Below, piece after piece: positions 692 through 57,763 of a stretch of 64,000 bases of DNA. The notes under the pieces were generated by a model. It was given only the letters and a program-made list of their open reading frames with translations. It had not been told where the DNA came from and made no database searches. A program made the position numbers and the translations under genes. Origin of the DNA: Schaalia sp. ZJ405 (GTDB lineage Bacteria; Actinomycetota; Actinomycetes; Actinomycetales; Actinomycetaceae). Location of the stretch: the NCBI RefSeq assembly GCF_011038885.2, contig NZ_CP064952.1:1984001-2048000 (forward strand), written 5' to 3'. Each line of letters opens with the position of its first letter. Positions within the stretch are counted from its first letter, which is position 1.

Positions 692-1966
692 ATGACACCC
701 ATGCCTCACGCAATGGACATTACCGCGGCAACCGTTGACCCTGCGCTCTTTGACCTGCCGTGGGAACTGCCCCTGGAAGAATGGCCAAGCAGCATTCTCG
801 CCGCACTTCCCCGAGGGATCTCCCGGCATGTCGTCCGCTTTGTTCACCTCTCAGACCGCGTCATCGCCGTCAAGGAAATCGGTGAAAGCGTTGCCCACCG
901 TGAGTATCAGCTCCTGCGTGACCTCACGCGCATGGACGCCCCCTCGGTCACTCCGACAGCCGTCATTACCGGTCGCCGGTCAGCAACCGGTGAGGAACTC
1001 AACGGCGTCCTCGTTACCGAACACCTGCAATTCTCACTGCCTTACCGCGCCCTTTTCTCCCGGCACATGACCGAAGACACCGCAACACGACTCATCGACG
1101 CCCTCGCTGTTCTCCTTGTCCGCCTCCACCTGCACGGTTTCTACTGGGGAGATGTCTCGTTATCCAACACCCTCTTCCGGCGCGACGCCGGCGCTTTCAG
1201 CGCCTACCTCGTGGACGCGGAAACAGGGGAACTCCACCCGAAACTCACCGACGGGCAACGCACCTACGACGTTGATCTGGCCCGCACCAACATCATTGGT
1301 GAGCTCATGGATCTTCAGGCCGGAACCTACTTCCCTGCTGACTCTGATCCTGTCATGGTGGGCGACCGCATTCGGAGCCGTTACGAGGACCTCTGGGGCG
1401 AGCTCACCAGCACGGAAACAATCGATGACAATCAGCGGTATCGAGTTGTCGATCGGATTCGCCGCCTCAACGACCTCGGATTCGACGTCGGTGAACTCCA
1501 GATGACCTCCGACGAATCGGGGCGACGCCTGCATATTCAACCAAAGGTGGTCGACGCCGGTCATCACCATCGCAAGCTCATGCGCCTGACCGGAATGGAT
1601 GTTGGTGAGCACCAGGCACAACGCCTACTGAACGACATCGACACCTACCGTGCGATCACCGGAAAGTCGCACCTTCCCCTGGAGATTGTGGCCCACGACT
1701 GGCTGACGAATGTGTTCGAACCCGTCATCGAGGCGATTCCACCGCAGCTTGCTCTCAAGCTCGAACCCGCGCAGATATTCCACGAGTTCCTCGATCATCG
1801 GTGGTTCCTTGGGAAGGAAAAACACACTGACCCGTCGTTCGACGAAGCAATCCGTTCCTATGTCGAAACCGTTCTTCCGCAAAAACGCGACGAGGCCGTC
1901 CTCGTTGATACAGAACTGAACAACGGCACACATTCCACCGCTGCGGTGTCTGAGGATCTCTGGTAG
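692..1966 (+). CDS. DUF4032 family protein with a kinase-like fold
   Basis: A 424-residue protein that I place in the actinobacterial DUF4032 family. Residues 55-180 look like a lipopolysaccharide-kinase/RIO-type fold. AVKE carries K61 where the ATP lysine would be, REY has E71, HGFYWGDVSLSN (148-159) has D154 and N159 in the catalytic-loop position, and LVDAE has D175 where DFG would be. The C-terminal half is the DUF4032 part and contains a helical segment HHHRKLMRLTG. The substrate is unknown. Start: ATG 692 follows GGAAG closely; ATGs at 701 and 713 are alternatives. Two copies of the dispersed CGTCCTCGT word (1006, 1897) lie inside the gene. The next gene follows on the same strand after 94 bases. 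Confidence 0.8.
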   Translation: MTPMPHAMDITAATVDPALFDLPWELPLEEWPSSILAALPRGISRHVVRFVHLSDRVIAVKEIGESVAHREYQLLRDLTRMDAPSVTPTAVITGRRSATGEELNGVLVTEHLQFSLPYRALFSRHMTEDTATRLIDALAVLLVRLHLHGFYWGDVSLSNTLFRRDAGAFSAYLVDAETGELHPKLTDGQRTYDVDLARTNIIGELMDLQAGTYFPADSDPVMVGDRIRSRYEDLWGELTSTETIDDNQRYRVVDRIRRLNDLGFDVGELQMTSDESGRRLHIQPKVVDAGHHHRKLMRLTGMDVGEHQAQRLLNDIDTYRAITGKSHLPLEIVAHDWLTNVFEPVIEAIPPQLALKLEPAQIFHEFLDHRWFLGKEKHTDPSFDEAIRSYVETVLPQKRDEAVLVDTELNNGTHSTAAVSEDLW

Positions 1967-2015
1967 AAACCGGACGCCCGGCGGTGGGATAATCGCACGG
2001 AGAAAAGCGCCACCT

Positions 2016-2024
2016 CGTCCTCGT
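2016..2024 (-). repeat. Dispersed word CGTCCTCGT, intergenic copy
   Basis: Copy in the form CCTCGTCCTCGTTC between the DUF4032 gene and the glycerophosphodiesterase gene, 37 bases before the latter's start. Confidence 0.75.
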
Positions 2025-2060
2025 TCATCACGACGGCGGTCCCCACGAAGGAGCCCCACC

Positions 2061-4139: not shown

Positions 4140-4315
4140 CGTTCGCATCCCCTTCTTTGTGAATGTCCACTGAGTCCTTGAGTGATACGGAACTGGCTTA
4201 ATCACATCACGAACTTGTGTCACTTGTCCCGTTTTAGAGTGAATTTCGCTGAAAACGTCAACGGGTGTGGGCAGTCCTCAACTCATCACAATACGCACTG
4301 ATGGGATGCCTGCCT

Positions 4316-4324
4316 CGTCCTCGT
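4316..4324 (-). repeat. Dispersed word CGTCCTCGT, full 14-mer, intergenic
   Basis: Exact GCCTCGTCCTCGTT, between the fba terminator and the start of the minus-strand hypothetical gene. It is followed directly by the GC-rich fba terminator area. Confidence 0.8.
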
Positions 4325-4356
4325 TAAGGCGCGCGGCGCTGTTCTGCGCGCACGAA

Positions 4357-4416: not shown

Positions 4417-4434
4417 AAATTCGTGTTCAGCAGC

Positions 4435-5624: not shown

Positions 5625-6350
5625 TCACGAACCGCTGCCCACAGCCCGCTGTGCCTGTACCCACATGACAATCGCCGCAGCATGACCAACATTCATTGAC
5701 CGCGTTGACCCGCGCTGCGTAATCGCCACAATCATCTCGCAGGCCTCGATCATGTCCTCGCTCAGGCCACCTGATTCCTCACCGAAGACGAGACATGCAT
5801 GCTCAGGAAGCTCCGCTTCCTCCACCGCAACCGATCCGTCCACGTTATCGACCCCAACGAGGACAAGACCCGACCTTTGGCAGTACTCAGCAAGAGCGCG
5901 CGCATCGGGAAGATGATCAACCGACATGTATCGATCTGTCACCATTGCGCCGCGACGATTCCATCGTTTACGCCCAACGATGTGAACGGCACGAGCACCC
6001 AAGGCATTCGCCGTGCGCACAATCGACCCGATGTTGAAGTCGTGAGCCAGGTTCTCAACGGCAATCTCAAAGGGAAGCGAATGTTCAGCGATATCCCGAC
6101 GGATCGCTTCCATCGTCCAATACCGGTATCGATCCTCGACGTTGCGCGAATCCCCGTGCTCCAAAAGCTCAGGGTCGTACCGGGTGTCTGTTGGCCATGC
6201 GTCGCGACCACCTGGCCACGGGCCAACACCCCTGACAGCGTCCGGCATTCCCTCGCTCCCTCCAGGGGACGAGGACGTCGCCGCCTTCACTTGAGATTCT
6301 GATTCACGGAGTGAGCGCCCACCGCTGCCTGACCGCGACTCCGTTTCCAC
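5625..6350 (-). CDS. SpoU/TrmH family RNA 2'-O-methyltransferase
   Basis: A SPOUT methyltransferase that transfers a methyl group from SAM to a ribose 2'-OH of tRNA or rRNA; the target base is not evident. All three SpoU motifs are present: NIGSIVRTANALGA (from N106), VFGEESGGLS, and the C-terminal knot STRSMNVGHAAAIVMW. The first 50 or so residues are low-complexity (S/G/P rich) and carry the dispersed repeat (6269), read there as TSSSP. Start is uncertain: GTG 6350 is the long form; ATG 6248 (MPDAVRG) has a purine-rich GGAGGGAGCGAGGGA before it and would leave the repeat outside the gene. Confidence 0.9.
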   Translation of the reverse strand: METESRSGSGGRSLRESESQVKAATSSSPGGSEGMPDAVRGVGPWPGGRDAWPTDTRYDPELLEHGDSRNVEDRYRYWTMEAIRRDIAEHSLPFEIAVENLAHDFNIGSIVRTANALGARAVHIVGRKRWNRRGAMVTDRYMSVDHLPDARALAEYCQRSGLVLVGVDNVDGSVAVEEAELPEHACLVFGEESGGLSEDMIEACEMIVAITQRGSTRSMNVGHAAAIVMWVQAQRAVGSGS

Positions 6351-6392: not shown

Positions 6393-6421
6393 GGCCGGCC
6401 AAGGGCCGGCCTCGTCCTCGT
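6393..6421. repeat. GGCCGGCC hairpin joined to a dispersed-repeat copy in a divergent promoter gap
   Basis: GGCCGGCC (6393-6400), three-base loop, GGCCGGCC (6404-6411), then TCGTCCTCGTT (core 6413-6421). It lies in the 142-base gap between the divergent SpoU and PH-domain genes. No T run follows, so it does not look like a simple terminator. Confidence 0.6.
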
Positions 6422-6492
6422 TAATAACGGAAAATCCACAACTATCGGGCCTCACCTTAGTGCCCGCAGCAAAGTAATGGCACCATTAAGGT

Positions 6493-8562: not shown

Positions 8563-8603
8563 ATCGCCTCGTCTCGTCAGAAATGCCACGAGGACGAGGC
8601 GAT
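8563..8603. terminator. Hairpin built from a pair of dispersed-repeat copies
   Basis: ATCGCCTCGTCTCGT (8563-8577) pairs with ACGAGGACGAGGCGAT (8588-8603) with a single unpaired base and a 10-base loop. The right arm contains the exact core ACGAGGACG (8588-8596). It lies between the convergent pyrE and dehydrogenase genes. The use of an inverted repeat pair as a terminator is like that of uptake sequences in Neisseria and Haemophilus. Confidence 0.7.
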
Positions 8604-8611: not shown

Positions 8612-9373
8612 CTACATGTGCGGAACCGACCGCATTGCGCGACGCACAAGCCAACGCGGTGACACTTTCATCGCACCCATCGCCACCTTGTACAGCGGGG
8701 ACGGAGTGACAAGCACTCTGCCTCGCGACACGGCATCCAAGGCCTCAGAAACAACCTGCTCCGACGTCAGCATGGCCCACGGCGGGGTCTGACCCATATC
8801 AACTCCGGCATTATCGAAGAACTGCGTCCGCGTTGGCCCCGGGCACACAGCGGTTGCCGTAACAGGCGTTCCACGCAGCTCCTGCGAAAGACCCTCGGTG
8901 AACGCCACAACCCACGCTTTGTGTGCGGAGTAGGTTCCAGCTCCGGTGAGCGAAGCTACCGACGCAACGTTGAGGATCGCTCCGTGTCCGCGCTCGCGCA
9001 TCGCGCGTGCAGCACAATGACTGAGCTCCATGACGGCCTCAACCATGACTGTGAGCGCGTTCTTCTCATTCTCAAGGGAGTTGTCAACGAAGGGACGCCC
9101 CAGGCCAAAACCCGCGTTGTTGACAAGTAAACCAATGGGAGCTTCCGGCGACTGGAGTCGTTCGCCCACGCGGGCACGGCCCTGCGACTGGGCAAGATCC
9201 GCAACGATCACTTCCGTGCGAACACCCGTGACGTTGTGTAGACGTGAGGCGATCTCCGCCAGGAGTTCACCACGCCGAGCAACGAGGACGAGGTTGTGGC
9301 CTGCCGCTGCCAGTTGCCAACAGAATTCTTCACCGAGGCCAGAGGTGGCTCCAGTCACAAGTGCCGTTCCCAT
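8612..9373 (-). CDS. Short-chain dehydrogenase/reductase
   Basis: A 253-residue classical SDR that uses NAD(P)H to reduce or oxidise an unknown small substrate. The Rossmann signature is TGATSGLG (residues 7-14), with VARR after beta-2 suggesting NADP preference. NNAG is at 85-88 and the catalytic triad is S138, Y148 and K152 in YSAHK. The usual PG motif is present as CPGPTRTQF. The C-terminus (residues 225-253) is basic and may associate with membrane. It is monocistronic and convergent with pyrE. One repeat copy (9282) codes for LVLVAR in beta-2. Confidence 0.9.
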   Translation of the reverse strand: MGTALVTGATSGLGEEFCWQLAAAGHNLVLVARRGELLAEIASRLHNVTGVRTEVIVADLAQSQGRARVGERLQSPEAPIGLLVNNAGFGLGRPFVDNSLENEKNALTVMVEAVMELSHCAARAMRERGHGAILNVASVASLTGAGTYSAHKAWVVAFTEGLSQELRGTPVTATAVCPGPTRTQFFDNAGVDMGQTPPWAMLTSEQVVSEALDAVSRGRVLVTPSPLYKVAMGAMKVSPRWLVRRAMRSVPHM

Positions 9374-9540: not shown

Positions 9541-10419
9541 ATGAGATTTGCCTCCTGGAACGTCAATTCGATCCGCACCCGCATCGACCGCGTCATTGCT
9601 TTCCTTGAACGCTCACAGGTTGATGTCCTGGCTCTGCAGGAAATTAAGTGCCGTCCCGACCAATTCCCCGTTGAAGCATTCACGCAGGCAGGCTACGACG
9701 TTCATGCTCTCGGGCTCAATCAATGGAACGGCGTAGCGGTTGTCTCACGGCTCCCAATTCTCAACGTGACTGAGAATTTCCCTGATCAGCCAGCCTTTGG
9801 TGACCCGGGCGTCGTGGAGGCTCGCGCTTTGGGCGTCACGGTCCGTCTTCGTGATGCTCTGGACGCAGCCTCGTCCTCGTCCCCTGAGAATCCCGGGAAC
9901 ACAGGTGAGGACGCGGAGGAACCCAGCATCCCCGCGCAGGCAGAGAAACTCACAGTGTGGAGCCTCTACGTGCCCAACGGGCGCGAGCTTGACCACCCGC
10001 ATTACGCGTACAAGCTCGACTGGTTGGACAAACTTCGCGTATGCGCGAAAGGGTGGTTGGCCGACGATCCGGAGGCGTTGATTGCGCTGGTCGGAGACTG
10101 GAATGTTGCGCCCCAAGACTCCGACGTGTGGGACATCAAGGCCTTTGAGGGGGCAACTCACGTGTCCGCGCCCGAACGCGCCGCTTTCGCCGCTTTCGCT
10201 GACGACGGTTGGGTCGAAGTCACCCGCGACCGCGTTGACCAGTACACCTACTGGGACTATCAAAAGCTCCGCTTCCCCAAGAACGAAGGAATGCGCATCG
10301 ACTTTGCCTACTGCTCACCCGCGTTGGCTGCGCGCGTCGATGGCGCCGCAATTGACCGCAACGAACGCAAGGGCAAAGGCGCGTCAGATCATGTTCCGAT
10401 CATCGTTGATATTCATTAA
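9541..10419 (+). CDS. xth: Exodeoxyribonuclease III
   Basis: A 292-residue AP endonuclease/3'-5' exonuclease of the ExoIII type, used in base-excision repair. Visible catalytic residues are N7 (SWNVNSIR), E34 (LQEIKCRPDQF), the YVPNGRE tyrosine loop, GDWNVAPQDSDVWD and the C-terminal SDHVPI. It is about 30 residues longer than usual because of an acidic, serine-rich insertion at about 105-136 (SSSSPENPGNTGEDAEEP) that begins with a dispersed repeat copy (9872). The insertion lies between two core strands, so it is probably a surface loop. The stop codon overlaps the next repeat copy (10419). Confidence 0.95.
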   Translation: MRFASWNVNSIRTRIDRVIAFLERSQVDVLALQEIKCRPDQFPVEAFTQAGYDVHALGLNQWNGVAVVSRLPILNVTENFPDQPAFGDPGVVEARALGVTVRLRDALDAASSSSPENPGNTGEDAEEPSIPAQAEKLTVWSLYVPNGRELDHPHYAYKLDWLDKLRVCAKGWLADDPEALIALVGDWNVAPQDSDVWDIKAFEGATHVSAPERAAFAAFADDGWVEVTRDRVDQYTYWDYQKLRFPKNEGMRIDFAYCSPALAARVDGAAIDRNERKGKGASDHVPIIVDIH

Positions 10420-10427
10420 CGAGGACG
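10419..10427 (+). repeat. Dispersed word ACGAGGACG, at the xth stop codon
   Basis: AACGAGGACGATGCC starts on the last base of the xth TAA and fills most of the 14-base gap to the convergent serine hydrolase. Confidence 0.7.
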
Positions 10428-16154: not shown

Positions 16155-16985
16155 TCAGCGCATCGGCGGCTGGACACCGTGTACGTAGAGATTGATGAAG
16201 TATTCGCGCCGGCGGCGATTCGCCTTCACCAGCAGAACAATGCCGATAATCGCCAGAATCACTCCGCCGATACCGAGCAGCGTGCCAATACCGAATGACC
16301 AGAGAACAGCCGACGTGAGGGCACTGGGATCTGCTCCTGTGAATCCATACATCGTCAGGCCCGTCGCGCCAGTGCAGGTCAGGGTGTAGTCGCCGGCCTC
16401 AAGTCCCATACCGTAGGACACCCCATCACCCATCGGATCCATTGGATGCTCACCCGTGTCATTCGACAGTGTGCATGCGACGTCGCGTCCGTTGGGGGCA
16501 ACAACCATGTAGGTTCCCGTTGAGTCCACAGTCACCGTATCTCCTGAAGTCACGGGTAGAGCAGAGGACATCACGCCCGAGTTACCTAGCGCCCCGAAGA
16601 GAATCCCGAAAAAAGCGATGGGAGCCACGACCACAGACAGAAGGATTCCCACAATCAGCGTCGTGATCGCCGGAGCTCGTGAGGGCGCCTTACCCGGCGT
16701 CATCGGGGCACCGGCCGGGCCAGTCCCGGGGTATCCGCCCGGGACAGTTGCCGCCTGTCCGGGATATCCTTGCGCGGCCGCGTTGGTACCTGTGGCATAC
16801 GGGGATCCCGAAGCCGAGCCGTTGGTGCTCCCCGTACCTCCGTGCATTCCCGAATTTTCAGGGAACGAGGACGAGGACGTTTGCGCGTGAAAATCCCCAG
16901 CCGATGACTCCGATGACGACAGCTCACCGTAGCGTGGCCACGGGGTATCACCGGAGGATTCATGAGGGTGAAATGTCTCAGGCAT
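16155..16985 (-). CDS. Uncharacterised membrane protein, P/G-rich N-terminus
   Basis: Not recognised. 276 residues. Residues 1-105 are disordered and rich in S, G, P and A, and contain SSSSFP coded by a double copy of the dispersed repeat (16865/16871). A hydrophobic stretch around 108-135 (LIVGILLSVVVAPIAFFGIL) and another near 235-260 (IGTLLGIGGVILAIIGIVLL) flank a beta-rich, two-cysteine domain (ACTLSNDTGE, LTCTGATG) that would face outside. The C-terminal tail is basic. Its start overlaps the gatD stop by 8 bases, so translation is coupled to gatD. A cell-wall role is suggested only by position. Confidence 0.75.
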   Translation of the reverse strand: MPETFHPHESSGDTPWPRYGELSSSESSAGDFHAQTSSSSFPENSGMHGGTGSTNGSASGSPYATGTNAAAQGYPGQAATVPGGYPGTGPAGAPMTPGKAPSRAPAITTLIVGILLSVVVAPIAFFGILFGALGNSGVMSSALPVTSGDTVTVDSTGTYMVVAPNGRDVACTLSNDTGEHPMDPMGDGVSYGMGLEAGDYTLTCTGATGLTMYGFTGADPSALTSAVLWSFGIGTLLGIGGVILAIIGIVLLVKANRRRREYFINLYVHGVQPPMR

Positions 16986-17760: not shown

Positions 17761-19168
17761 GCCTCGTCCTCGTTCCTTGTGACGTCGATTCTGCGTATCC
17801 GCGAGCGTGAAGAAGCGCCGTGAAATCTCTCAGGGCCGTGTAATTCACCAGAACCTCCACAGGACCCGCGTCCATTCTTTCGATCGCTTCCATCGGTGTG
17901 CTCACAAGCTCACACTTAATTCCCGCATACTCCAGACGTACCGCAAGATCGGCTCCTCGTTCACCGCAGGCAATGATCCGACGTTGAGCCCCCGCCTCGT
18001 CCTCGTTCCCAGAAATGGGGGGAACAGAACCCAGGAGAGAAAATTCAACATCCCACAACCACGACAAATCTTGCCCATCAGGAACCTGACCGTTGACACC
18101 GATGACAATCTGACGCGCTAAGGGGTCAATCATCGACAGCGTTTCCTGCCAACCCGCGGGATTCTTTGCAAGAATCAGCCGGGCCTTCCGACCGGAAATA
18201 TCGTGAGTGGAATACCGTCCGGCCACCTCCGTGACCTCTGCGACGGCCTTCGCCGCAACCTCGGCTGGCACACCGAGCGCAACCGCTGCGGCCACAGCCT
18301 GCGCAGCATTCCCCAAATTTGCTCGTCCCGGAAGACGCAGATTTACGGCAACATCAATCCCACCGGGCCCATGCAGGCGGGCACGCGAACCTGAAATATC
18401 AACGCTCACATCGCTGAGCCACCAGTGCGGCTGCGGACGACGCGAAAGCTCTGGAAGTGTTTCATCCGGCTTCGACGCAACGAGATGCCATCCGTCCTCG
18501 TCATAGATCACCCGTCCACCCCGCGGATACGCCGCGGCATCATGGGTCCATCCCGAACCAGCGGACACCCACTGAACATTGGGTGAATCGCAGGCAGCAG
18601 AAACAACCAGCGGGTCATCGCAGTTCGCCACGACAACAGCGTGGGGAGAGTCATTGACCGCTTGGCGGAGCCGCTGCTCAACGGCCCCAATTTCACCAAC
18701 GCGATCAAGCTGATCACGCGACACGTTGAGCAACACAATCGCCGATGGCTTTGCTTGGGCCGCCACCGATGGAACGTGCATTTCGTCAACCTCAAGGGAG
18801 GCGAAGCGTGCCGAGGGGGACGCAATGAGCGCCGAGACAATTCCGGCGGTCATATTGTCACCATTCGTATTTGACGTCACTGTGCCCGCTGTCGCCAGCG
18901 CGTGAGACACCATCCGAGTCGTTGTTGACTTGCCATTCGTTCCCGAGACAATCACCGAACTCACGTGGGTTCCCAGGTCAGCCAAGACATCGGGACTCAG
19001 ACGCAGAGCAATCTGCCCGCCGATCATTCCACCCGAGCCTCGTCCCAGAGTCCGTGAAGCCCAGCGCGCAAGACGACCGCCGCTCACGGCGACACGCGAA
19101 CGAAAAGGAAGAGCCGCTCGGCGACGCGCGGGGGCGTTACCGGGCGGTGTCAGTTGAGCCTCAGTCAT
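17753..19168 (-). CDS. murT: Lipid II isoglutaminyl synthase, ligase subunit MurT
   Basis: Mur-ligase-like enzyme that activates the D-Glu carboxylate of lipid II with ATP for amidation by GatD ammonia. 471 residues: P-loop VSGTNGKSTTT (75-84), LEVDE (125-129), LNVSRDQLDR, then the C-terminal domain and the MurT-type end LVNYTALRDF. In known MurT proteins the middle insert carries a Cys4 zinc ribbon. Here the matching stretch (about 200-250, AAYPRGGRVIYDEDGWH to RRPQPHWW) keeps the frame residues but has no cysteine. Repeat copies code for DEDG there and for NEDEAG and RTR near the C-terminus. It starts 18 bases after hspR. Confidence 0.93.
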   Translation of the reverse strand: MTEAQLTPPGNAPARRRAALPFRSRVAVSGGRLARWASRTLGRGSGGMIGGQIALRLSPDVLADLGTHVSSVIVSGTNGKSTTTRMVSHALATAGTVTSNTNGDNMTAGIVSALIASPSARFASLEVDEMHVPSVAAQAKPSAIVLLNVSRDQLDRVGEIGAVEQRLRQAVNDSPHAVVVANCDDPLVVSAACDSPNVQWVSAGSGWTHDAAAYPRGGRVIYDEDGWHLVASKPDETLPELSRRPQPHWWLSDVSVDISGSRARLHGPGGIDVAVNLRLPGRANLGNAAQAVAAAVALGVPAEVAAKAVAEVTEVAGRYSTHDISGRKARLILAKNPAGWQETLSMIDPLARQIVIGVNGQVPDGQDLSWLWDVEFSLLGSVPPISGNEDEAGAQRRIIACGERGADLAVRLEYAGIKCELVSTPMEAIERMDAGPVEVLVNYTALRDFTALLHARGYAESTSQGTRTRHE

Positions 19169-20868: not shown

Positions 20869-21566
20869 TTATTCAGGGTTATTCACCATGACTTTTGTTG
20901 CGCGAAGCACGTGATCTGCGCGCTTATACCCCGGCTGCACGACCTGTCCGATGACGGGATGATCAACATCCGCACTGGTGTTGGCCATCAGCGCGTCGTG
21001 GAGCATCGGGTCAAAATCGTCTCCGACTTGACCGTAACGTTCCATCTGAAAACGCGTTTTGAGCGTCTCTTCCAGTTTCGTTGCGATCGCAGCGAAAGGC
21101 CCGTCGTCTAAGTCTCCGTGCTGACGTGCGGCGTCGATATCGTCAAGAACCGAGATCAGCGCGTCCATGACGTCATTTTGTCCGGTGTCACGGTGCCCGG
21201 GAATAGCTTCTTTCGAGCGGCGCACGAAGTTCGCGTATTCCTGGTTGAGGTTGTACAGGTCGGCGTTGGCGTGAGCGAGCTGATCCTCGAGCTGAGCGAT
21301 TTTCTCCAGGGCTTTCGCCAAGTCAGAATCTTCGATCTGCTCCTCGAAACTCGTCATGTCCACGGCGGCGTCGCTTCCGTCGGTGTCCGTCGCCTCGTCA
21401 TCGGAAGGCATTTCAGGGGACGAGGACGAGGCCGCGTGCGCGTCCGAATCCCCCTGCCCCCCGGACTCCGGGGTCGGTTCGGCATTCGAGCCGACCCCGG
21501 AAGTTCCAGCGCCTGAGGCTGTGACATCGTCGGATTCAGGCACGAGGCCGTGGTTGTCGGCATCCG

Positions 21567-21570: not shown

Positions 21571-23426
<1,856 letters not shown>

Positions 23427-23684: not shown

Positions 23685-23693
23685 ACGAGGACG
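23685..23693 (+). repeat. Dispersed word ACGAGGACG, intergenic copy
   Basis: Copy with a degenerate left flank (TTCACGAGGACGACC) in the dnaK-rlmC divergent gap. Confidence 0.6.
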
Positions 23694-23750: not shown

Positions 23751-25082
23751 ATGTACTGCGAGCATTTCGAGTCCGAAATCTGCCACTCCTGTCCACTGAT
23801 CCGCATGCCCTACGACGACCAGATTGATCAGAAACAATCCGCCGTCGCCCACGTCCTCGACCCCGTCCTCGTTCATGGACCCGGCACGCGGTGGCTGGCT
23901 CCCGCCCTCTCCCCCGAACGCGGCTTCCGCACAAGCGCAAAACTCGTTGTCGGCGGCACAAGGCGCCGCCCCACTCTGGGGATCCTCGGAGCCCATCGCC
24001 GCGGCATCGACCTGCCCGGCTGCCCCATTCAACACCCCGCGATCAACGCGGCAACTCCGCGACTTAAACGCTTCATCAGGATGCTCGACCTCACCCCCTA
24101 CGATGTCCCCACGCGAAACGGGGAACTCAAGAACATCCTCATCACCGTCGGCGCCAACGACCAGCTGATGATCCGATTCGTTCTGCGCTCACGCGACCGT
24201 GTTGCCAACATTCGTCGCTCGCTCGGTGCCCTCCAGGACCTCGTTCCAGGCGCCACCGTCGTCACCGCAAATATCCACCCCACCCACGAAGCCCTCCCCG
24301 AGGGTCCCGACGAGATCATCCTGACGAAATCTCGACGAATTCCCCTGGATTTTGGGGATGTGAGGCTCGCCGCCGGCCCCCAGTCCTTCGTCCAAACCAA
24401 TACGACGATCGCCCGCGACCTCTACCGCCAGGTCGCACAGTGGGCGAGCCTCCCCATTGACGAGGGCGAGCACGTTGACGAAGGCGAATACGCGGACGCG
24501 ACGCGGAAAAACACCGACGGCAAAAACCCTGCGGCCCACACTGCACCACCCACTGCCGACATGACGAATGAGGGTAGCCACGGCCTCTCCACCAGCTCCA
24601 CCGCCAGGACCCCCGAGCCGCGAGCGCCCCGCTCGCTCTGGGATCTCTACTGCGGCGTCGGAGGTTTTGCCATGCACGCAGCCAGTGCGCAGATCCCTCA
24701 GGTCACCGGCATCGAAGTCAGTGACCAGGCAATCGCCTGCGCAAAGACCGCCGCTCATGCGATGGGACTGAGCAAAGACCACGTGACGTTCCTCAGCGCC
24801 GACGCCACACAGTGGGTGAGGTCGCGCGACGTCACCGCCCCGGATGTCATCGTCGTCAATCCGCCACGACGCGGCATCGGAAAGGAACTGGCCAACTGGA
24901 TCAACGCCAGCGGGGTTCCGCGGGTGATCTATTCGTCGTGCAACCCAGATTCCCTGGTCAAGGACCTTACGCACCTCGGAAATTACACGGTGGAGCAGGC
25001 CCGACTTTTCGACATGTTTCCGCACACGCAACACGCCGAAGTCGCCGTACTGTTGAAGCGGCGACACGAAAGCACCCTTTAG
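23751..25082 (+). CDS. RlmC/RumA-like 23S rRNA (uracil-C5)-methyltransferase
   Basis: 443 residues. N-terminal cysteines C3, C11, C14 and C91 fit the iron-sulphur cluster of RlmC-type enzymes; there is no TRAM domain, unlike RlmD. The SAM fold appears as DLYCGVGGFAMHAA, VTGIEVSDQAI, ADATQW and VVNPPRRGIG, and the catalytic cysteine as IYSSCNPDSLVKDL. It methylates a uracil of 23S rRNA (U747 in E. coli RlmC); the exact base here is inferred. A low-complexity insertion of about 60 residues (about 225-285, DEGEHVDEGEYADATRK and on) splits the two domains. A repeat copy (23864) codes DPVLV. Confidence 0.88.
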   Translation: MYCEHFESEICHSCPLIRMPYDDQIDQKQSAVAHVLDPVLVHGPGTRWLAPALSPERGFRTSAKLVVGGTRRRPTLGILGAHRRGIDLPGCPIQHPAINAATPRLKRFIRMLDLTPYDVPTRNGELKNILITVGANDQLMIRFVLRSRDRVANIRRSLGALQDLVPGATVVTANIHPTHEALPEGPDEIILTKSRRIPLDFGDVRLAAGPQSFVQTNTTIARDLYRQVAQWASLPIDEGEHVDEGEYADATRKNTDGKNPAAHTAPPTADMTNEGSHGLSTSSTARTPEPRAPRSLWDLYCGVGGFAMHAASAQIPQVTGIEVSDQAIACAKTAAHAMGLSKDHVTFLSADATQWVRSRDVTAPDVIVVNPPRRGIGKELANWINASGVPRVIYSSCNPDSLVKDLTHLGNYTVEQARLFDMFPHTQHAEVAVLLKRRHESTL

Positions 25083-30248: not shown

Positions 30249-30665
30249 GTGAGTACACCGGAACGGGGATGGTATCCAGACCCCGAAAATCCCCGGAAGA
30301 TACGCTGGTGGGATGGCGATTCCTGGACGACTCAGGTTGCGGATCTTCCCTCCAGCGCTTCAGCGACCTCGGTGGAGTCCTCATGGGATGGGGACGAGGA
30401 CGAGGCCGCGGCTTTCCTCACGCCCGGAGGCCACGGCGCGTCACCGGTGACTCATCAACGCAGGCGCTCGACCGCAAGCACTGTCATCTGGGTTTTCGCT
30501 GTTTTTTCCCTGGTTGTTGCAGCAGCACTGTGGGGACTGTCCCTCGTTCTTGACTCTCAGATCAGTCGCGCCGAATCTGAGGAAGAAGCGGCACAGTCAG
30601 CGCTCGAAGCCGCTCAGTCTGGACTTGATGCTGTGAAACAGCAGCTAGAAAAGGAACGCCAATGA
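30249..30665 (+). CDS. DUF2510 membrane protein with coiled coil
   Basis: 138 residues from a GTG start. Residues 6-32 are a DUF2510 motif (GWYPDPENPRKIRWWDGDSWT), a small tryptophan-rich module common in actinobacterial membrane proteins. Then comes SSWDGDEDEAAAF coded by a dispersed repeat copy (30394), one membrane helix (about 80-105, VIWVFAVFSLVVAAALWGL) and an alanine/glutamate coiled coil to the end. It overlaps the next gene by 4 bases (ATGA), so the two products are probably partners. Confidence 0.82.
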   Translation: MSTPERGWYPDPENPRKIRWWDGDSWTTQVADLPSSASATSVESSWDGDEDEAAAFLTPGGHGASPVTHQRRRSTASTVIWVFAVFSLVVAAALWGLSLVLDSQISRAESEEEAAQSALEAAQSGLDAVKQQLEKERQ

Positions 30666-32939: not shown

Positions 32940-32979
32940 CCATCTGCGCAGATGGTGAGTGGTGACGAGGACGAGGACG
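32940..32979. repeat. Palindrome plus double dispersed-repeat copy between convergent genes
   Basis: CCATCTGC/GCAGATGG (32940-32955, perfect 16-base palindrome) followed by GACGAGGACGAGGACGAGG, which holds two overlapping cores (32965-32973 and 32971-32979). It ends 4 bases before the permease stop. Confidence 0.7.
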
Positions 32980-32982
32980 AGG

Positions 32983-37178: not shown

Positions 37179-37871
37179 TCAAGACTCTTGTTGAGAACGA
37201 CACGAAAATTCTTCAAGTTCTTGGAGAGCACGCATCCACGTTCCATAACGCTGTCGAACGCTCGCAAGCGACGGCACCTCCGCACGTCCGCGTTCCCGTT
37301 CACTTCCCGACCAACGTCCGTAGCCATTAAGCGTCACCGGTTCCTGCTGTCGTTGACAAAACTCTAAGAATTCCGCGAATGCCGACCGGAAACTCTCCGA
37401 GGTAAAGCGTCCGCTTCCTCGCTGACGACCAACCGGAGATACGGGGATGTCAAAGCGCCGCAGCGCATCTGCCCAGTTGCCATCACCGAGCCTCACCGCA
37501 ATAGTTCGACTCCTCGGAGGCCACACCAGTGCCCCTCTGTGAGATTCCACTCGCCAACGCGCGAGAATCTCCGCCCTCGCCGCATCAATTTTCCCTACCG
37601 ATACGCTCGGGCATTCTTTCACGGCCGCTGACTGACGTGCCCAGGCGATCAGTGCGAGGATGAGTGCGCGCTCGTCCTCGTCCACCCGGTTCTTTTCACA
37701 CAGCGGAAGGATTGCCTGCTCGTCCTCGTCCCGACGTTCCTGCGTGCGCGCCCAGCTGACGATCTCCTCGCGCTCGGCCGCGCTCGTCCTCGTCCATCCC
37801 ACAAGAAACCAGAATCCCAATTCGATTTGCTGATCCGTAAATGCCGGAACCCGCCCACTCGTTCGTGCCAT
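37179..37871 (-). CDS. Protein with homing-endonuclease-associated repeats, no nuclease domain
   Basis: 230 residues. The C-terminal part resembles two repeats of the type found next to HNH homing endonucleases: PRSRTIAVRLGDGNWADALRRF (about 123-144, split here) and VTLNGYGRW...PSLASVRQRYGTWMRALQEL (about 182-222). No HNH or other nuclease motif is present. The N-terminal half holds three copies of the dispersed repeat (37673, 37721, 37785), read in three ways as VDEDERA, RRDEDEQ and WTRTSAA. This is the densest cluster in the window. Function unknown; DNA binding is plausible. ATG start is at 37871. Confidence 0.6.
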   Translation of the reverse strand: MARTSGRVPAFTDQQIELGFWFLVGWTRTSAAEREEIVSWARTQERRDEDEQAILPLCEKNRVDEDERALILALIAWARQSAAVKECPSVSVGKIDAARAEILARWRVESHRGALVWPPRSRTIAVRLGDGNWADALRRFDIPVSPVGRQRGSGRFTSESFRSAFAEFLEFCQRQQEPVTLNGYGRWSGSERERGRAEVPSLASVRQRYGTWMRALQELEEFSCRSQQES

Positions 37872-40949: not shown

Positions 40950-42263
40950 TTAATGTGCTGCCAGTCCCCTGGCCCACAGTTCACCCCATGTGGCTGTTGC
41001 CTCAATCGCCGCGGAGTCGAGATCGCCAACTGAAGGGTCGGCCGTGAGGAACCACTGCGCGGCGGTATCGGCGCGCACGTCCTCGTTCATTGGATCGATG
41101 GCACCGGCAACGGCGAGGCTTCTTTGCGTTCGCCGAGTACTCAGCCACGCAATGAAAGACTCTGCTCCGTCACTGGCCGCAGGTCCCGATGCGACATACA
41201 GGATGCGCTTGACGCACGTCGCGGGAATCGGCGCGGCAACACTTTCGCTTCCCGAGTTATTGAGTGCGAGGGTCGCAAGCGAACGTGGCGCAACAACAAG
41301 AGGGATTGACGAGGGCGAGGCCGCATCTTCCTCGGCCCGGCTCGAATGTCCGGCGGAGTCACCCTCGGACGTGCTCAAGGCAGGTTTGTCAGATGCAGCC
41401 GTGTCCCCTAAATCTCCGGGGACCGGGGAATCGTGGGCACCGATACCCGGGGTGAGCGCCAGGCGGGTCCAATAGGCTTGAGGAATCACCCGCGCGCCGG
41501 TCCATGCTCGAATCGCATCCGCGGCGGTGGGGGTCACGGTGAGTGCGTGCTGAGCGTTCTTCACCCAGTCGTCGACTGTGCCATTCGTTGCCATCCCAAT
41601 GGATTGGGTGAAAGAACGTCCAATACTTGTCACTTTCGGATCCGGAACACTGAGTTTCGGTGCGTCCGCTGCTGACAGCTCAGCAAGGCTCGTTGGCAGG
41701 GGCAGAGCATTGGCACTAAACCACCGGGAATCAGCGATGACGCACACGTCGTCTCGTCCGTAGGCAACACCGGCGAGAGCCTGCGGGAGTTCAGTGCCTT
41801 CCGGGGTCCGCGTATCCTCGGGTGTCGTTGACGCGATTGTTCCTGCGCTCGCTGCACTTCCCGCATCCGTTGCATCAAGCCCAGCGACGACATCGGCGTG
41901 AGCATGCTCCAGGTCAGCTGCCGATTCCACTTCCACCACCGACAGAGTAAATCCCGTCTCCGCTGTGAATTGTTGAGCGACTTCCTCGGGGAGGCGAGCA
42001 CCACCGATGAGGGCGAGAGTGACCTCACCGTGTCCTTTGCGTGGGTGAGGCTCAGCGGATTGGCCGCTCTGTGCGCCGTCGGATCCCGCTGCATAGCCCC
42101 CGGGAAGGATCGCGTGATCAAAGGGGTTATCGGGGGCGTTCGAGGACACCGACGGGGAGCATCCCGCAACAATAAGGCTCAGGGCCGAGGCCGAGGCGCC
42201 CACACGCAGAACCGACATCGCTCGGAGGCGCTCGGCCAGTGTTTTTAGTGGTTGAGCGATCAT
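40950..42263 (-). CDS. Substrate-binding lipoprotein, thiamine-type (TbpA-like)
   Basis: 437 residues from ATG 42263 with GGGAGGA upstream; the longer open frame has no support. Lipobox LIVAGC puts the lipid on C35. The fold follows family 1/6 periplasmic binding proteins: VTLALIGGARLPEEVAQQFTAETGF, GVAYGRDDVCVIADSRWF, LAELSAADAPKLSVPDP and a late FIAWLSTRRTQRSL. Similar proteins bind thiamine, but no TPP riboswitch is seen upstream and no permease or ATPase is adjacent. Two acidic low-complexity insertions (about 45-75 and 305-345) are unusual. Repeat copies lie in it (41078) and upstream (42346). Confidence 0.75.
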   Translation of the reverse strand: MIAQPLKTLAERLRAMSVLRVGASASALSLIVAGCSPSVSSNAPDNPFDHAILPGGYAAGSDGAQSGQSAEPHPRKGHGEVTLALIGGARLPEEVAQQFTAETGFTLSVVEVESAADLEHAHADVVAGLDATDAGSAASAGTIASTTPEDTRTPEGTELPQALAGVAYGRDDVCVIADSRWFSANALPLPTSLAELSAADAPKLSVPDPKVTSIGRSFTQSIGMATNGTVDDWVKNAQHALTVTPTAADAIRAWTGARVIPQAYWTRLALTPGIGAHDSPVPGDLGDTAASDKPALSTSEGDSAGHSSRAEEDAASPSSIPLVVAPRSLATLALNNSGSESVAAPIPATCVKRILYVASGPAASDGAESFIAWLSTRRTQRSLAVAGAIDPMNEDVRADTAAQWFLTADPSVGDLDSAAIEATATWGELWARGLAAH

Positions 42264-42345: not shown

Positions 42346-42354
42346 CGTCCTCGT
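42346..42354 (-). repeat. Dispersed word CGTCCTCGT, upstream of the binding-protein gene
   Basis: GCGTCCTCGTCCCTG, 83 bases before the lipoprotein start in the divergent gap to the DUF4235 gene. Confidence 0.7.
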
Positions 42355-45721: not shown

Positions 45722-45730
45722 ACGAGGACG
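45722..45730 (+). repeat. Dispersed word ACGAGGACG between purQ and purL
   Basis: GGGGACGAGGACGAGGGTT inside the purQ-purL gap, in the middle of an operon. Confidence 0.75.
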
Positions 45731-46456: not shown

Positions 46457-46734
46457 TTGGTGCCTCCCGCGTAACGCGGGTCGTCCTCGTCAATAGCCTC
46501 AACACGGACGACGTCTTCAATGATCGGGTTGGAGAGAACTTCCTCGGCGGCGCGACGTGCGTCAGCGAGAAGCTCGTCGGTGACGGGGCCGTCCACGGAC
46601 AGGTGGAAGCACTTGCCCTGACGAACGGCAGTGAAGCGAGAAATCCCCAGCCTCGGCAGCGCCGAACTCACTGCTTTCCCCTGCGGGTCTAGGATCTCCG
46701 GCTTCGGCATCACTTCCACGATGATTCGCCCCAC
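46453..46734 (-). CDS. purS: Phosphoribosylformylglycinamidine synthase, PurS subunit
   Basis: 93 residues from GTG 46734 with AAGGAGG seven bases upstream; the longer open frame lacks a ribosome site. PurS pattern: [42 protein letters not shown] and [15 protein letters not shown]. It joins PurL and PurQ into the active complex. A repeat copy (46482) codes the acidic end IDEDDP. Confidence 0.93.
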
Positions 46735-52391: not shown

Positions 52392-53456
52392 GTGGATCTC
52401 AACCTGATCCTCGTTGTCCTCGTCATCGTTATTGCCCTGGGCTTCGACTACACCAACGGTTTTCACGACGCGGCGAACGCCATCGCAACATCGGTGTCGA
52501 CGCGTGCTCTGACCCCGCGAGCCGCCCTGCTCATGGCCGCGATCATGAACGTCATCGGTGCTCTTCTGGGAACGGAAGTCGCCAAAACCATCGGCGAAGG
52601 CATTATCGACATCGCCCAGTATTCCGAATCCACCGTGACGAGCGTCCAACGCGAAGGCCTCGTCATCGTCCTCGCCGCTCTTGTGGGTGCGGTCGTGTGG
52701 AACCTCATTACCTGGTGGTTTGGGCTGCCGTCGTCCTCGTCTCACGCACTCATCGGTGGCCTCGTGGGAGCGGGTTTGGCCTCGGCAACAACCGTCAAAT
52801 GGGCCGGCATCCTCGAATCCGTCATCATCCCGATGTTCGTTTCACCATTCATTGGTTTCTTCCTCGGTTTCGTCCTCATGAAAATCCTCATGTGGGCGCT
52901 ACGCAGACTTCCCTACCATCGAACGATGCGAAAATTCCGTATTCTCCAGACAATTTCTGCGGCAGCAATGGCTTTGGGCCACGGCCTCCAGGACGCCCAG
53001 AAAACAATGGGGGTAATCGTCATGGCCCTCGTTGCCGGTGGCTACGGTGAACATCATCAGATTTTCGACCCGGTCACCGGAGACCTCACGATCCCCCTGT
53101 GGGTGAAAATCGCCGCGGCAGGCGCAATTTCGCTGGGGACCTATTCGGGTGGCTGGCGCATCATGCGCACCCTGGGACGCAAAATCATTGATCTTGATCC
53201 CGCGCGTGGTTTCGTTGCCGAATCGGTGTCCGCAGCCGTTCTTTACCTGTCTGCTTTCGCTCTTCACGCCCCTATTTCAACAACCCACACGATCACATCA
53301 GCGATCCTCGGTGTGGGGGCGACAAAGAGATTCTCCGCGGTTCGCTGGGGGGTTGCCGGCAACATCGTTGGCGCGTGGTTCCTCACATTGCCCGCGGCGG
53401 CAGGGGTTGCGGCTGTTTTCTTCTGGCTCATTCACTGGGTAGTTGTCGCCCTCTAG
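52392..53456 (+). CDS. pit: Inorganic phosphate transporter, Pit family
   Basis: 354 residues, about ten membrane helices, from a GTG start. It is a low-affinity, cation- or metal-phosphate-coupled phosphate carrier. The family duplicate signatures are FDYTNGFHDAANAIATSVSTRAL (N-terminal) and AMALGHGLQDAQKTMGVI (middle), with LPSSSSHALIGGLVGAG and the C-terminal APISTTHTITSAILGVGATK. The SSSSH codons overlap a repeat copy (52732). Confidence 0.95.
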   Translation: MDLNLILVVLVIVIALGFDYTNGFHDAANAIATSVSTRALTPRAALLMAAIMNVIGALLGTEVAKTIGEGIIDIAQYSESTVTSVQREGLVIVLAALVGAVVWNLITWWFGLPSSSSHALIGGLVGAGLASATTVKWAGILESVIIPMFVSPFIGFFLGFVLMKILMWALRRLPYHRTMRKFRILQTISAAAMALGHGLQDAQKTMGVIVMALVAGGYGEHHQIFDPVTGDLTIPLWVKIAAAGAISLGTYSGGWRIMRTLGRKIIDLDPARGFVAESVSAAVLYLSAFALHAPISTTHTITSAILGVGATKRFSAVRWGVAGNIVGAWFLTLPAAAGVAAVFFWLIHWVVVAL

Positions 53457-53472: not shown

Positions 53473-53985
53473 ATGCTTTCCGTGTGTCACAGTGAATCCT
53501 CCCCCGCGTCGTCCTCGTCCCCATCATTGACGAGGACGAGCGCGCCTTCTCCTCGCCGACGCCTTAGTGTGGCGGGAGTACTTCTCCTTGCGGGAGCGGC
53601 GCTGACGCTTGCGGGGTGCTCGTTTTCATCGGTGATGAAGCTCTCCGCGGGTGACTGCATTGAACTTCCCCAAGACTCAACCGCGGTGACCGTTGACGTG
53701 CGTTCGTGCACGTCGGATCACAATGCTGAGGTGTCGAAGATTGTGTCGGTCAAGGATGACGGGGAGTTCCCGGGGGATGCGGTGCTCAATGAGCGCGCGG
53801 AAAAAGAGTGCGTTGATTCTTTCGAGGACTACGTTGGCACCCCGTACGTGACATCGGCTCTGGATGTGACGTGGCTGATTCCGACAAAGAACTCGTGGGA
53901 GCAGAATGACCGTTCCATTGTGTGTCTCGTTCATGCGATGGATCGTTCTGCGCTGACGCAGTCGGTGAAGGATTCGCAGCTCTAG
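53473..53985 (+). CDS. Septum-formation-family lipoprotein
   Basis: 170 residues from ATG 53473, 16 bases after pit. An S/P/R-rich head (SSPASSSSPSLTRTSAPSP) is coded by two repeat copies in opposite orientation (53510, 53530). Then follow a hydrophobic signal and lipobox LTLAGC. The outer domain has KLSAGDCIELP, VDVRSCTSDHNAEVSKIV, EKECVDSFEDYVG and DRSIVCLVHAMD, the pattern of a four-cysteine domain annotated as septum formation in actinobacteria. Role unknown. Confidence 0.8.
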   Translation: MLSVCHSESSPASSSSPSLTRTSAPSPRRRLSVAGVLLLAGAALTLAGCSFSSVMKLSAGDCIELPQDSTAVTVDVRSCTSDHNAEVSKIVSVKDDGEFPGDAVLNERAEKECVDSFEDYVGTPYVTSALDVTWLIPTKNSWEQNDRSIVCLVHAMDRSALTQSVKDSQL

Positions 53986-54129: not shown

Positions 54130-54138
54130 CGTCCTCGT
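54130..54138 (-). repeat. Dispersed word CGTCCTCGT, intergenic copy
   Basis: CCCTCGTCCTCGTCCC, a few bases beyond the stop of the Nudix-phosphatase gene. Confidence 0.75.
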
Positions 54139-55203: not shown

Positions 55204-55324
55204 CCTCTAAGCCTACCGGCCAAAGGCCATCTCGACTCATCAACCGTCCACCGGCTCACTCGCATCTCTTCTCAAAGGCCGCGCGTCGCCCTCGTTAATG
55301 ACAACGACCCGTGACGTGAGTGAT

Positions 55325-57763
55325 CTACTCAGCGGAACGGCCAATAACGCGAGACGATGCCTCCTTCATGAGCTGAGTCTGAATGTCGTGGAGCGCAGTA
55401 CCATTCTTGCCGTACTGTCGACGCTTCCACGTGCCATCCTTACGCAGCGCCCACGACGTTGTTGCCGGTGAAACCCCCGTTCGCACGAGGTTTGCAAGGT
55501 AGGAGATGTGCTCGGGATCGGCGATGCGCACAAGAGCCTCAACGCGACGATCAAGATTGCGATGCATCAGGTCGGCAGACCCGATCCACACTTCTTCCTC
55601 ACCGCGCGGCCCGAAAGCATAGATCCGAGAATGTTCAAGGAAACGCCCCAGGATCGAACGAACACGAATGTTGTCCGACAGGCCCGCAACCCCGGCGCGG
55701 ATCGCGCAGATCCCCCGGACCTCAACATCAACACGCACCCCCGCTTGGGATGCGCGGTACAGGGCATCGATGACGGCCTCATCAACCACGGAATTCACTT
55801 TGATTCCGATCCACGCACCCAGCCCGGCTTTCTGGCGTTCGATCTGTCCGTTGATGCGCTCAATCAGGCCATCACGGATCGACAGCGGAGCCACCAGGAG
55901 CCTGTGGAAGGTTGACCTGGGCGCATAGCCGGACAGCTGATTAAACAGGCGCGTGAGATCTTGAGCAACATCGCGATCGCAGGTCAGCAACCCAAGATCT
56001 TCGTATCCGCGAGCAGTCTTGGGATGGTAGTTGCCCGTACCGACGTGGCAGTAGCGCCGAAGCCCGTCAGCTTCCTGACGAACAACAAGCGAGAGCTTGC
56101 AGTGAGTTTTCAACCCAACCATGCCGTAGACAACGTGAACGCCCGCGCGTTCAAGTTTGCGCGCCCACCCGATATTCGCCTCCTCATCGAAACGCGCCTT
56201 GATTTCAACGATGGCGACAACCTGTTTGCCAGATTGAGCCGCCTCGATGAGTGCCGAAACAATCGGAGAATCCCCGGATGTTCGATAGAGAGTCTGCTTC
56301 ATCGCCAGAACGCTCGGGTCGCGCGCTGCCTGCGTGATGAAGGCCTGCACCGAGGTTGCAAACGAGTCGTAGGGATGATGAACGAGGACGTCGTGGGAGC
56401 GGATCGAGGCGAAAATATCGGATGCGCGCGCCGACTCAAACTCTGCCAGGCCCGCAGCGGTGACGGGCACATACTTCGGATATTTGAGGTCGGTGAGTTC
56501 TAGGTCGTGGAGTTCATTGCAGAGCGTGAGGTCAAGGGGAGCGGGCAAGCTAATGACATCCGCGTGCGAAATCTCCAGCTTTTCCACGAGGAACTCACGC
56601 ACGAAGGGAGAAATGGTGTCTTCAACTTCGAGGCGCACAACGGGCCCGAACTTCCGGCGAAGGAGTTCTTCCTCCATCGCGGTCAGAAGGTTTTCGGCGT
56701 CGTCCTCTTCCACCTCGACGTCCTCGTTACGCGTCACCCTGAAGGAATGAGCTTCGACGATCTCAACGCCGGGGAAGAGATGCTCCAGGTGCGCACGAAC
56801 CACATCTTCAAGGGTGACGAAAGTTGCGCCCTGCTCCGTGTCGATGTAGTCCTCGGGAACCCCGCCACCGGCTACGGAATCAACGTTAATCAGGCGAGGA
56901 AGCGAGGGCGGAACCTTGACGCGAGCAAAATGTAATTTCCCGTTCAACGGGTTGCGGACAACGACCGCGAGATTGAGCGACAGTCCTGAAATGTAGGGAA
57001 ACGGGTGCGACGGATCAACAGCTAAGGGCGTGAGCACGGGGAAAATTTGGCGCCGGAAGTAGCGCGTAAGCACCGACTTGTGTTCCTCGCCGAGACTATC
57101 CCAGCGGGTCAGGTGAATACCCGCATCTGCGAGCGCCGGAAGAATCTCCGTCTGAAAGCTCTCCGCTTGACGTGTTGTGAGCTCGCGGGTGCGCGCCTGG
57201 ATTCCCTCAAGGACCTGTCGCGGTTCCAAACCGGAGGCGGATTTCTTCGCGATTCCCGCGGCAATTCGGCGTTTAAGGCCCGCGACGCGCACCATGTAGA
57301 ACTCGTCAAGGTTTGAGGAGAAAATCGCCGAAAACCACGCGCGTTCAAGCAGCGCAAGCTGGGTGTCCTCAGATTGCTCAAGGACCCGCTGGTTGAACGC
57401 CATCCACGAGATTTCTCGGTCCCCGAAGCGTCCCTTGGGCAGGGGTTTGTCCTCTCCGATCGGCTCGGACATGTCAACGCACGGGGTCAGTGGTGGTGTC
57501 TGAGGGAGACGTTCGTTGATGTCGTCGTCGTATTCGGAGTCCTCATGTTCCACGCCAACAAGTTCAGCTTGTTCGGCTCCGCGGACAAACATCTCCTCAG
57601 CACGTGCGCTCTGCATGGATTCGCTTTGCGCATACGGAGTCGCGTACGAGGACGAGGTTGCGTACGAGGACGAGGCCTGGCCCTCGGCCTCGTCAGGCAC
57701 CTGAAGTTCGGGGCCGGGCCACGATTCGTCGGGGGCGGAGAAGTGCTGTTCGTCGGTCGACAT
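55325..57763 (-). CDS. ppk: Polyphosphate kinase 1
   Basis: 812 residues. It makes inorganic polyphosphate from ATP. The core begins near residue 111 ([20 protein letters not shown]). Later marks: [78 protein letters not shown] with an active-site H, and [15 protein letters not shown]. The 110-residue N-terminal extension is acidic and low-complexity ([18 protein letters not shown]), made partly by two repeat copies (57646, 57664). RBS AAAGGGA. Confidence 0.96.

Follow-up and report, generated by a model that had tools for sequence, protein, structure and literature searches.

A 64,000-nucleotide stretch of the chromosome of Schaalia sp. ZJ405 (positions 1,984,001-2,048,000 of the single, 2,345,961-bp contig NZ_CP064952.1), referred to below as the window, is scattered with copies of one 9-base word, CGTCCTCGT, which lie in genes, such as that of polyphosphate kinase, as well as between them. 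The genome that holds the window is called G000 where it has to be told from others; of the named relatives found, Schaalia cardiffensis is the closest, with polyphosphate kinases that are 82% identical, which agrees with the earlier placing of the DNA near Schaalia/Actinomyces. An exact search finds 41 copies, 22 on the plus and 19 on the minus strand, spanning 1006-57672. These figures are identical to those of an earlier note, made from the letters of this stretch, which had proposed that the word acts as a DNA uptake sequence. Eight copies are part of an exact 14-mer, GCCTCGTCCTCGTY. Gene limits were drawn by a simple, purpose-made gene caller and, since this caller is simple, were redrawn conservatively for the intergenic counts, with the called genes stretched to their longest open reading frame (ORF) and every ORF of more than 200 amino acids (aa) counted as a gene. 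The exact matches are listed below; "both" marks copies that are intergenic by caller and conservative limits alike.

1006..1014, plus: core copy
1897..1905, plus: core copy
2016..2024, plus: core copy, intergenic by both
4312..4325, plus: core copy in exact 14-mer, intergenic by both
6269..6277, minus: core copy, intergenic by caller only
6409..6422, plus: core copy in exact 14-mer, intergenic by both
8588..8596, minus: core copy, intergenic by both
9282..9290, minus: core copy
9868..9881, plus: core copy in exact 14-mer
10419..10427, minus: core copy
16865..16879, minus: pair of core copies that overlap (16865-16873 and 16871-16879), intergenic by caller only
17761..17774, plus: core copy in exact 14-mer
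17994..18007, plus: core copy in exact 14-mer
18493..18501, plus: core copy
21419..21432, minus: core copy in exact 14-mer
23278..23286, minus: core copy
23685..23693, minus: core copy, intergenic by both
23864..23872, plus: core copy
27411..27419, minus: core copy
27481..27489, minus: core copy
28522..28530, plus: core copy, intergenic by both
30393..30406, minus: core copy in exact 14-mer
30709..30717, plus: core copy
32965..32983, minus: pair of core copies that overlap (32965-32973 and, in exact 14-mer, 32971-32979), intergenic by both
37673..37681, plus: core copy, intergenic by caller only, within a 230-aa minus-strand ORF
37721..37729, plus: core copy, intergenic by caller only, within a 230-aa minus-strand ORF
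37785..37793, plus: core copy, intergenic by caller only, within a 230-aa minus-strand ORF
41078..41086, plus: core copy
42346..42354, plus: core copy, intergenic by caller only, within longest ORF 40950-42590
45722..45730, minus: core copy, intergenic by both
46482..46490, plus: core copy
52732..52740, plus: core copy
53510..53538, no single strand: inverted pair (53510 plus, 53530 minus, 11 bp between), intergenic by caller only
54130..54138, plus: core copy, intergenic by both
56382..56390, minus: core copy in polyphosphate kinase gene
56719..56727, plus: core copy in polyphosphate kinase gene
57646..57672, minus: pair of core copies with 9 bp between them (57646-57654 and 57664-57672), where the polyphosphate kinase gene starts
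57673..64000, no strand: stretch without an exact copy (3.2 expected, P 0.04)

The abundance of the word lies far above random expectation, as the earlier note had estimated by hand. In 100 shuffles of the window that preserved its dinucleotides, CGTCCTCGT occurred 1.40 times on average and at most 5 times, none of the shuffles reaching 41, and the 14-mer did not occur at all; Markov models of order 3 and order 5 predict 2.1 and 10.2 copies of the 9-mer, respectively. The excess extends to the whole genome, where 1,039 copies (551 on the plus and 488 on the minus strand) compare with 45 (25 and 20) of a control word of reversed letters. Since the genome-wide density is one copy per 2.3 kb, the window is richer in the word than average.

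Copies in and between genes were counted in a 464-kb sample of the genome that comprises the window and 20 stretches of 20 kb each, with the intergenic expectation taken from a first-order Markov model or from base composition. The sample holds 227 copies, of which 179 lie in genes, two straddle a gene edge and 46 are intergenic. Synonymous codon shuffling leaves 24.1 copies in the genes (at most 34 in 40 shuffles), whereas base composition predicts 0.65 copies for the intergenic DNA delimited by the caller; under the conservative limits, 31 copies are found in 47.7 kb, with 0.47 expected. Within the window, 19 of the 41 copies are intergenic by the caller's limits, at a non-coding share of 11.9% (binomial P 5e-8), and 10 by the conservative ones, at a share of 7.5% (P 7.5e-4), so that the figure of about 12 given previously falls between the two and there is an excess over the non-coding share either way. 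The rest of the sample shows no such excess over the non-coding share: 28 of its 186 copies are intergenic, and 14.7% of its DNA is non-coding. The coding copies are read as SSSS, DEDE, NEDE, VLV, RGR and TRT, and all six classes of frame and strand in the genes of G000 are enriched, from 4.5-fold (the D-E-D class, 80 copies) to 75-fold (15 copies), the rarest class having 3 copies only; relative to the genes, 92 copies are in sense and 87 in antisense orientation. It is the DNA, not the peptide, that is kept, as had been concluded earlier from the variety of reading frames, and CGTCCTCGT is no codon artefact.

The conserved site extends beyond the word itself. Counted from the first base of the 9-mer, intergenic and coding copies have flanks in common from -7 to +12. 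On the 5' side, G is preferred at -7 and at -5, C at -6, -3 and -2, and T at -1; on the 3' side, the preference is for C at +9, for A or C at both +10 and +11, and for C or T at +12. Therefore, the unit measures about 20 bp and is longer than 14 bp; its extended consensus is gCgnCCT-CGTCCTCGT-CMMY, with CG-N-CCTCG as the heart. When a single base of the 9-mer is exchanged, the variants found in genes are enriched 3.9-5.6-fold at position 2 (all three bases) and 2.4-4.0-fold at position 8, as compared to 0-2.3-fold at the other seven positions; between genes, variants at position 4 are slightly in excess (10 versus 2.7). The site is not palindromic, its reverse complement, ACGAGGACG, being different from CGTCCTCGT.

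Along the chromosome, the word shows no preference for either replication strand. With the terminus placed near 1.15 Mb by the change of sign of the GC skew, the 464-kb sample together with two further stretches of G000 contains 127 leading and 125 lagging copies (confidence interval of the leading share, 0.44-0.57), and the respective numbers for the core CG.CCTCG are 440 and 439. The spread is Poisson-like (variance/mean 0.91 over 19 stretches of 20 kb, with the window and one prophage stretch excluded), and near the terminus the density is neither lowered nor raised (11, 7 and 10 copies per 20 kb in three stretches between 1.08 and 1.34 Mb). The word is, however, absent from the prophage stretch (L099, G000:C1:1680001-1700000, with terminase, portal, capsid and tape-measure genes), where 10.2 copies would be expected (P 4e-5, rising to 7e-4 when corrected for the inspection of 20 stretches) and the core occurs 5 times instead of 36 (P 9e-11). 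At the copy-free right end of the window (57673-64000), the core is similarly rare, 3 versus 11.5 expected (P 0.003). The depletion in recently acquired DNA is thus documented for two regions only. As to the gene content of the right end, a tRNA-Lys gene (58756-58830) is followed to its right by phage-like genes, namely those for a repressor-type helix-turn-helix protein, an amidase/endolysin of phrog_4018 and a weak match to a minor tail protein, so that at 58756-64000 an integrated prophage, or what remains of one, probably has one of its ends. L099 also contains two ORFs on the minus strand, at 3789-5209, with a match to an IS3-family transposase.

Relatives of G000 spell the word differently. 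Across 35 genomes of the genus, G000 included, the count of CGTCCTCGT goes from 1,039 in G000 down to background, and unbiased word counts, made on stretches of 12 relatives and of five genomes of other genera, point in most genomes to variants of CG-N-CCTCG: position 2 is T, C or G, the flanks differ and the core stays constant. Nine genus genomes (G009, G010, G011, G019, G022, G023, G025, G028 and G034) contain 738-1,131 copies of CGGCCTCGT and only 161-255 of CGTCCTCGT, as compared to 285 and 1,039, respectively, in G000. By the codon-aware counts, G014 has 55 copies of CGCCCTCGT in genes versus 3 expected and 27 between genes versus 0.1 (24 versus 0.12 with conservative limits), within a footprint that is similar but of other letters, GnGCCC-CGCCCTCG-TnAAT; G028 has 41 copies of CGGCCTCGT versus 11 in genes and 18 versus 0.3 between them (11 versus 0.15 with conservative limits); and G013 has 55 copies of CGCCCTCGT versus 22 in genes and, by the caller's limits, 19 versus 0.6 between them. 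In G024, G026 and G018 the enrichment is mainly in genes. G012 and G007, with a GC content near 70%, show a modest excess of the heart, positions 2 and 8 being free to hold any base, and the motif is weak or degenerate in G003, G007, G012, G030, G083 and G093. Among the genomes of other genera, CG[CT]CCTCG is strong in G133 and G123 and weak in G083 and G093, and in G079 the word counts did not reveal the motif. S. cardiffensis, with mixed spellings, has 43 copies of CGNCCTCGN in 22 kb, versus one of a scrambled control. Dialects with an invariant core are thus clear in G000, G014 and the nine genomes with CGG spelling, including G028; a comparison of related genomes had been suggested by the earlier note, and its outcome fits the uptake reading.

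The competence and pilus genes that had been proposed as a check, comEA, comEC and Tad/Flp genes, are found in G000, along with dprA and one A24 prepilin peptidase. The comEA gene (SLBB and HHH domains) adjoins comEC within L097:10099-12601; the tad-1 cluster is at C1:92,541-97,550, and the tad-2 cluster, at C1:1,714,686-1,719,775, comprises what we take, partly by position, to be tadA, B, C, a small Flp-like pilin gene, tadE and two more pilin-like genes. No N_methyl-type pilin was found in G000. The order of the tad-2 genes is the same in nine relatives examined, the TadF-like gene being unmatched in one, and the tad-1 ATPase, comEC and comEA are present in every genus genome examined for the motif, as well as in G032, which has none. 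An orthologue of the tad-2 ATPase was not found in seven of the 35 genus genomes (G016, G017, G018, G021, G024, G026 and G032), among them G021, which is 70% complete, and G017, which consists of about 310 contigs. Tad-2 was considered as the determinant of the motif, as genomes low in CGTCCTCGT first seemed to lack it. Counting the right dialect removes most of this link, because four of the tad-2-less genomes carry CGGCCTCG. These four (G016, G018, G024 and G026) group as one clade in a phylogeny built from the LepA, HolA and ComEC sequences of 21 genomes, and their lack of tad-2 is therefore a single event; the LepA match of the four is a 27%-identity paralogue, with a branch length that is untrustworthy, and in G032, G035 and G002 at least one of the three genes was missing. 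G032 is without both tad-2 and the motif, and within a set of 151 family genomes there are examples of disagreement between tad-2 and word counts in both directions. Next to tad-2 in G000, at L186:12185-18877, lies a helicase-nuclease gene pair (UvrD-helicase and PD-(D/E)XK nuclease domains) that is presumably AdnAB-like. Of the 27 further genus genomes that have tad-2, 13 (G001-G004, G006-G008, G012, G014, G015, G027, G030 and G033) also carry an AdnA-like gene no more than about 5 kb away from it. AdnAB was also rejected as the determinant of the motif, an AdnA-like protein being present in 34 of the 35 genus genomes, with and without the motif.

When these features are set beside known systems, two kinds of uptake sequence come closest. 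The DNA uptake sequences (DUS) of Neisseriaceae are 10-12 bp long and are received by the minor pilin ComP; to our knowledge, only Tad-type pilus clusters are known in actinobacteria. Like the ComP-read DUS, the word of G000 numbers about a thousand copies or more, distributed over genes and intergenic DNA, keeps a core across dialects and is accompanied by competence genes. Unlike them, it is GC-rich, consists of unrelated letters, has a footprint of about 20 bp and few inverted pairs, and belongs to an actinobacterium; it has neither the letters nor the CTG core of the DUS, and no N_methyl-type pilin that might correspond to ComP was found. With the uptake signal sequences (USS) of Pasteurellaceae, the receptor of which is predicted to be ComN/PpdA, it shares dispersal, asymmetry, an inner core kept between types and long flanking preferences, but its letters are different, it has no AT-tracts of the kind known from USS, and its host has no detectable N_methyl-type pilin. 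Chi, the FtsK-orienting polar sequences (KOPS) and the highly iterated palindrome HIP1 likewise reach high genomic counts, but Chi and KOPS are strand-biased and HIP1 is palindromic, whereas CGTCCTCGT shows no leading-strand bias as in Chi, no terminus skew as in KOPS and no HIP1-like palindrome. Part of PMC3630211 describes eight DUS dialects with variable edges and an invariant CTG core, frequent inverted DUS pairs in Neisseria and about 1,900 DUS in the 2.2-2.3 Mb of each of two Neisseria species; part of PMC12616744 describes an inner USS core, GCGG, kept between types. In Micrococcus luteus, transformation needs both tad clusters and comEA/EC, according to parts of PMC4322843 and PMC8467076, the main texts of which do not contain the term 'uptake sequence'. 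G000 resembles M. luteus in having comEA/EC and two tad clusters (tad-2 in the order tadA-B-C-flp-tadE-F-G), with the difference that in M. luteus both clusters are required, whereas across this family the motif occurs without tad-2.

Here we argue, with a probability of roughly 0.7, that CGTCCTCGT is the core of a putative dispersed DNA uptake sequence, a self tag of about 20 bp. This reading is favoured because an abundance in excess of codon effects, a long and asymmetric site that is used in both orientations, the lack of replichore bias, absence from the prophage stretch and dialects around a constant heart are together the signature of the neisserial and pasteurellacean uptake sequences; no other class of repeated word known to us combines them all. 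The tag would be preferred by a DNA receptor at the surface or in the cell wall, as part of a natural-transformation machine. Free double-stranded DNA with the tag in either orientation may be caught by a minor pilin of the Tad/Flp type or by ComEA and pulled to ComEC, where it would enter as a single strand to be handed over by DprA to RecA for recombination. Tagged alleles would then be taken up and fixed more often and, therefore, the word could have spread and been maintained wherever the code allows, whereas DNA arriving by other routes, such as prophages, would come without the tag. Divergence of the receptor would change the preferred spelling and could give rise to the dialects of the species.

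A number of observations weigh against such a function. No receptor was identified, and ComEA and the pilin-like proteins are not strikingly basic (pI 4.2-7.8, as estimated for eight G000 proteins as called, with uncertain starts). The motif does not follow tad-2: the tad-2-less G016, G018, G024 and G026 have 297-379 copies of CGGCCTCGT versus 22-34 of the control and, despite the lack of tad-2, 24 intergenic copies of CGGCCTCG taken together versus 2.4 expected; in other genera, G123 has 1,528 copies of CGNCCTCGT versus 154 without tad-2, and G079 has tad-2 without the motif. Only 4 close inverted pairs occur in the 464-kb sample, versus about one expected by a hand estimate, and the pairing of copies at terminators, frequent for neisserial DUS, was dropped as a feature for this reason, inverted pairs having been counted with terminators unmapped. 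The density of CGTCCTCGT is about half that of the Neisseria DUS. In comparison with S. cardiffensis, limited to seven aligned blocks, only 1 of 7 and 1 of 18 sites are kept in position, with a background of 30 of 171. Conservative gene limits, applied to four genomes only, leave no intergenic copy in G013, because only 2.6 kb of non-coding DNA, too little for the test, remains there. By codon-aware counts the motif is weak in G030, G003 and G007, two frame classes in G028 and one in G013 have no copies, and no motif emerged from the word counts of G032. Furthermore, no uptake or transformation experiment in Schaalia is among the matches listed in an open-access literature search. The uptake reading of the earlier note thus stands in part: the three outcomes that it had named as contrary to it, namely counts no higher than a codon-aware model predicts, copies confined to D/E or S runs, and a strong KOPS- or Chi-like strand bias, did not occur, and the dialects, the word-free prophage and the Tad, ComEA, ComEC and DprA set speak for it, whereas the missing receptor, the scarcity of inverted pairs and the motif in tad-2-less species do not.

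Other explanations would dispense with uptake altogether. An artefact of codons, codon pairs or acidic and serine linkers in a GC-rich genome could be suspected from the preference of the coding copies for DED/NED, SSS and VLV readings, and from 22 genomes that belong to other families within the order, in which the word exceeds its reversed control 0.7-4.6-fold, mostly more than 2-fold; this is already contradicted by the intergenic, synonymous-shuffle and frame-class counts given above, and its probability is negligible. The heart CG-N-CCTCG might instead be a Chi-like recombination signal, read by the AdnAB-like or another helicase-nuclease that would turn from degradation to the loading of recombination proteins. 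The 8-bp heart indeed has the size of known Chi sites, Chi is rarer in foreign DNA, too, and the helicase-nuclease gene pair adjoins tad-2; nonetheless, we consider this unlikely, as well-studied Chi sites are skewed to the leading strand, whereas neither the word nor its core is, as the footprint of about 20 bp has species-specific flanks, and as the AdnA-like protein is found whatever the dialect, even in the motif-less G032. It should be added that Chi sites also differ between bacterial species (PMC3630211, in part).

The word could also be bound by a protein that organises the chromosome or the nucleoid, one in need of anchor points throughout the chromosome and evolving together with its site, which would account for the Poisson-like spread, for the occurrence of both orientations in and between genes and for the absence from the prophage stretch. 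Such a site seems improbable, given that the density is flat near the terminus, unlike that of Noc, SlmA or MatP sites, that orthologous positions are not kept, and that selection on each of about a thousand sites would be hard to picture. Finally, an iterated word of the HIP1 kind, kept by a bias of mutation, repair or gene conversion with no role in uptake, would fit the abundance and the turnover of sites, and the weaker forms across the family could represent different strengths of one such bias. This is quite improbable for a non-palindromic site of about 20 bp in which the letters at position 2 and in the flanks differ between close relatives, and no mutational process known to us would produce a site of this kind.

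Returning to the uptake sequence, we think it, on balance, probable that the Actinomycetaceae evolved a DNA-uptake self-recognition code of their own, a third origin independent of Neisseria and Haemophilus, with a reader of the Tad-pilus or ComEA type and with dialects on CG-N-CCTCG through which the species of the genus could be kept genetically apart. So far, uptake sequences are known in two Gram-negative families, Neisseriaceae and Pasteurellaceae. Among the matches listed in an open-access literature search on uptake sequences, competence and transformation in Actinomycetota, none reports such a word, and of the 456 papers that contain one of the letter strings, the ten listed do not, by title or abstract, deal with such a genomic repeat. 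If the proposed function is correct, self-tagging of DNA would have arisen convergently in actinobacteria with Tad clusters, the word would offer a sequence handle for finding the DNA receptor of Tad-based competence, gene flow between species could be read from the dialects, and transformation would become testable in poorly studied genera.

Several minor observations were made on other words in these genomes. In some genomes of the family, CGNCCTCGT lies below its reversed control (16 versus 132 in G109, 9 versus 49 in G085), an apparent avoidance. Further intergenic words that are unexplained were seen in G013 (GAACAGAGCGGACTT-like; stretches L122 and L150-L154), G003 (CCCCTAGATTTAA; L120 and L155-L159) and G028 (GGGGAAAAC; L121 and L145-L149). 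The words CGACGTCG and CGTCGTCG in G079 (L221-L224) and ATCGTCGCC in G083 (L205-L208) are enriched in genes beyond codon usage and are possibly other codes or codon-pair effects. In the stretches of G016 (L113 and L125-L129), the words of a direct repeat recur 46-49 times; the repeat is probably a CRISPR (clustered regularly interspaced short palindromic repeats) array and was masked before later counts.

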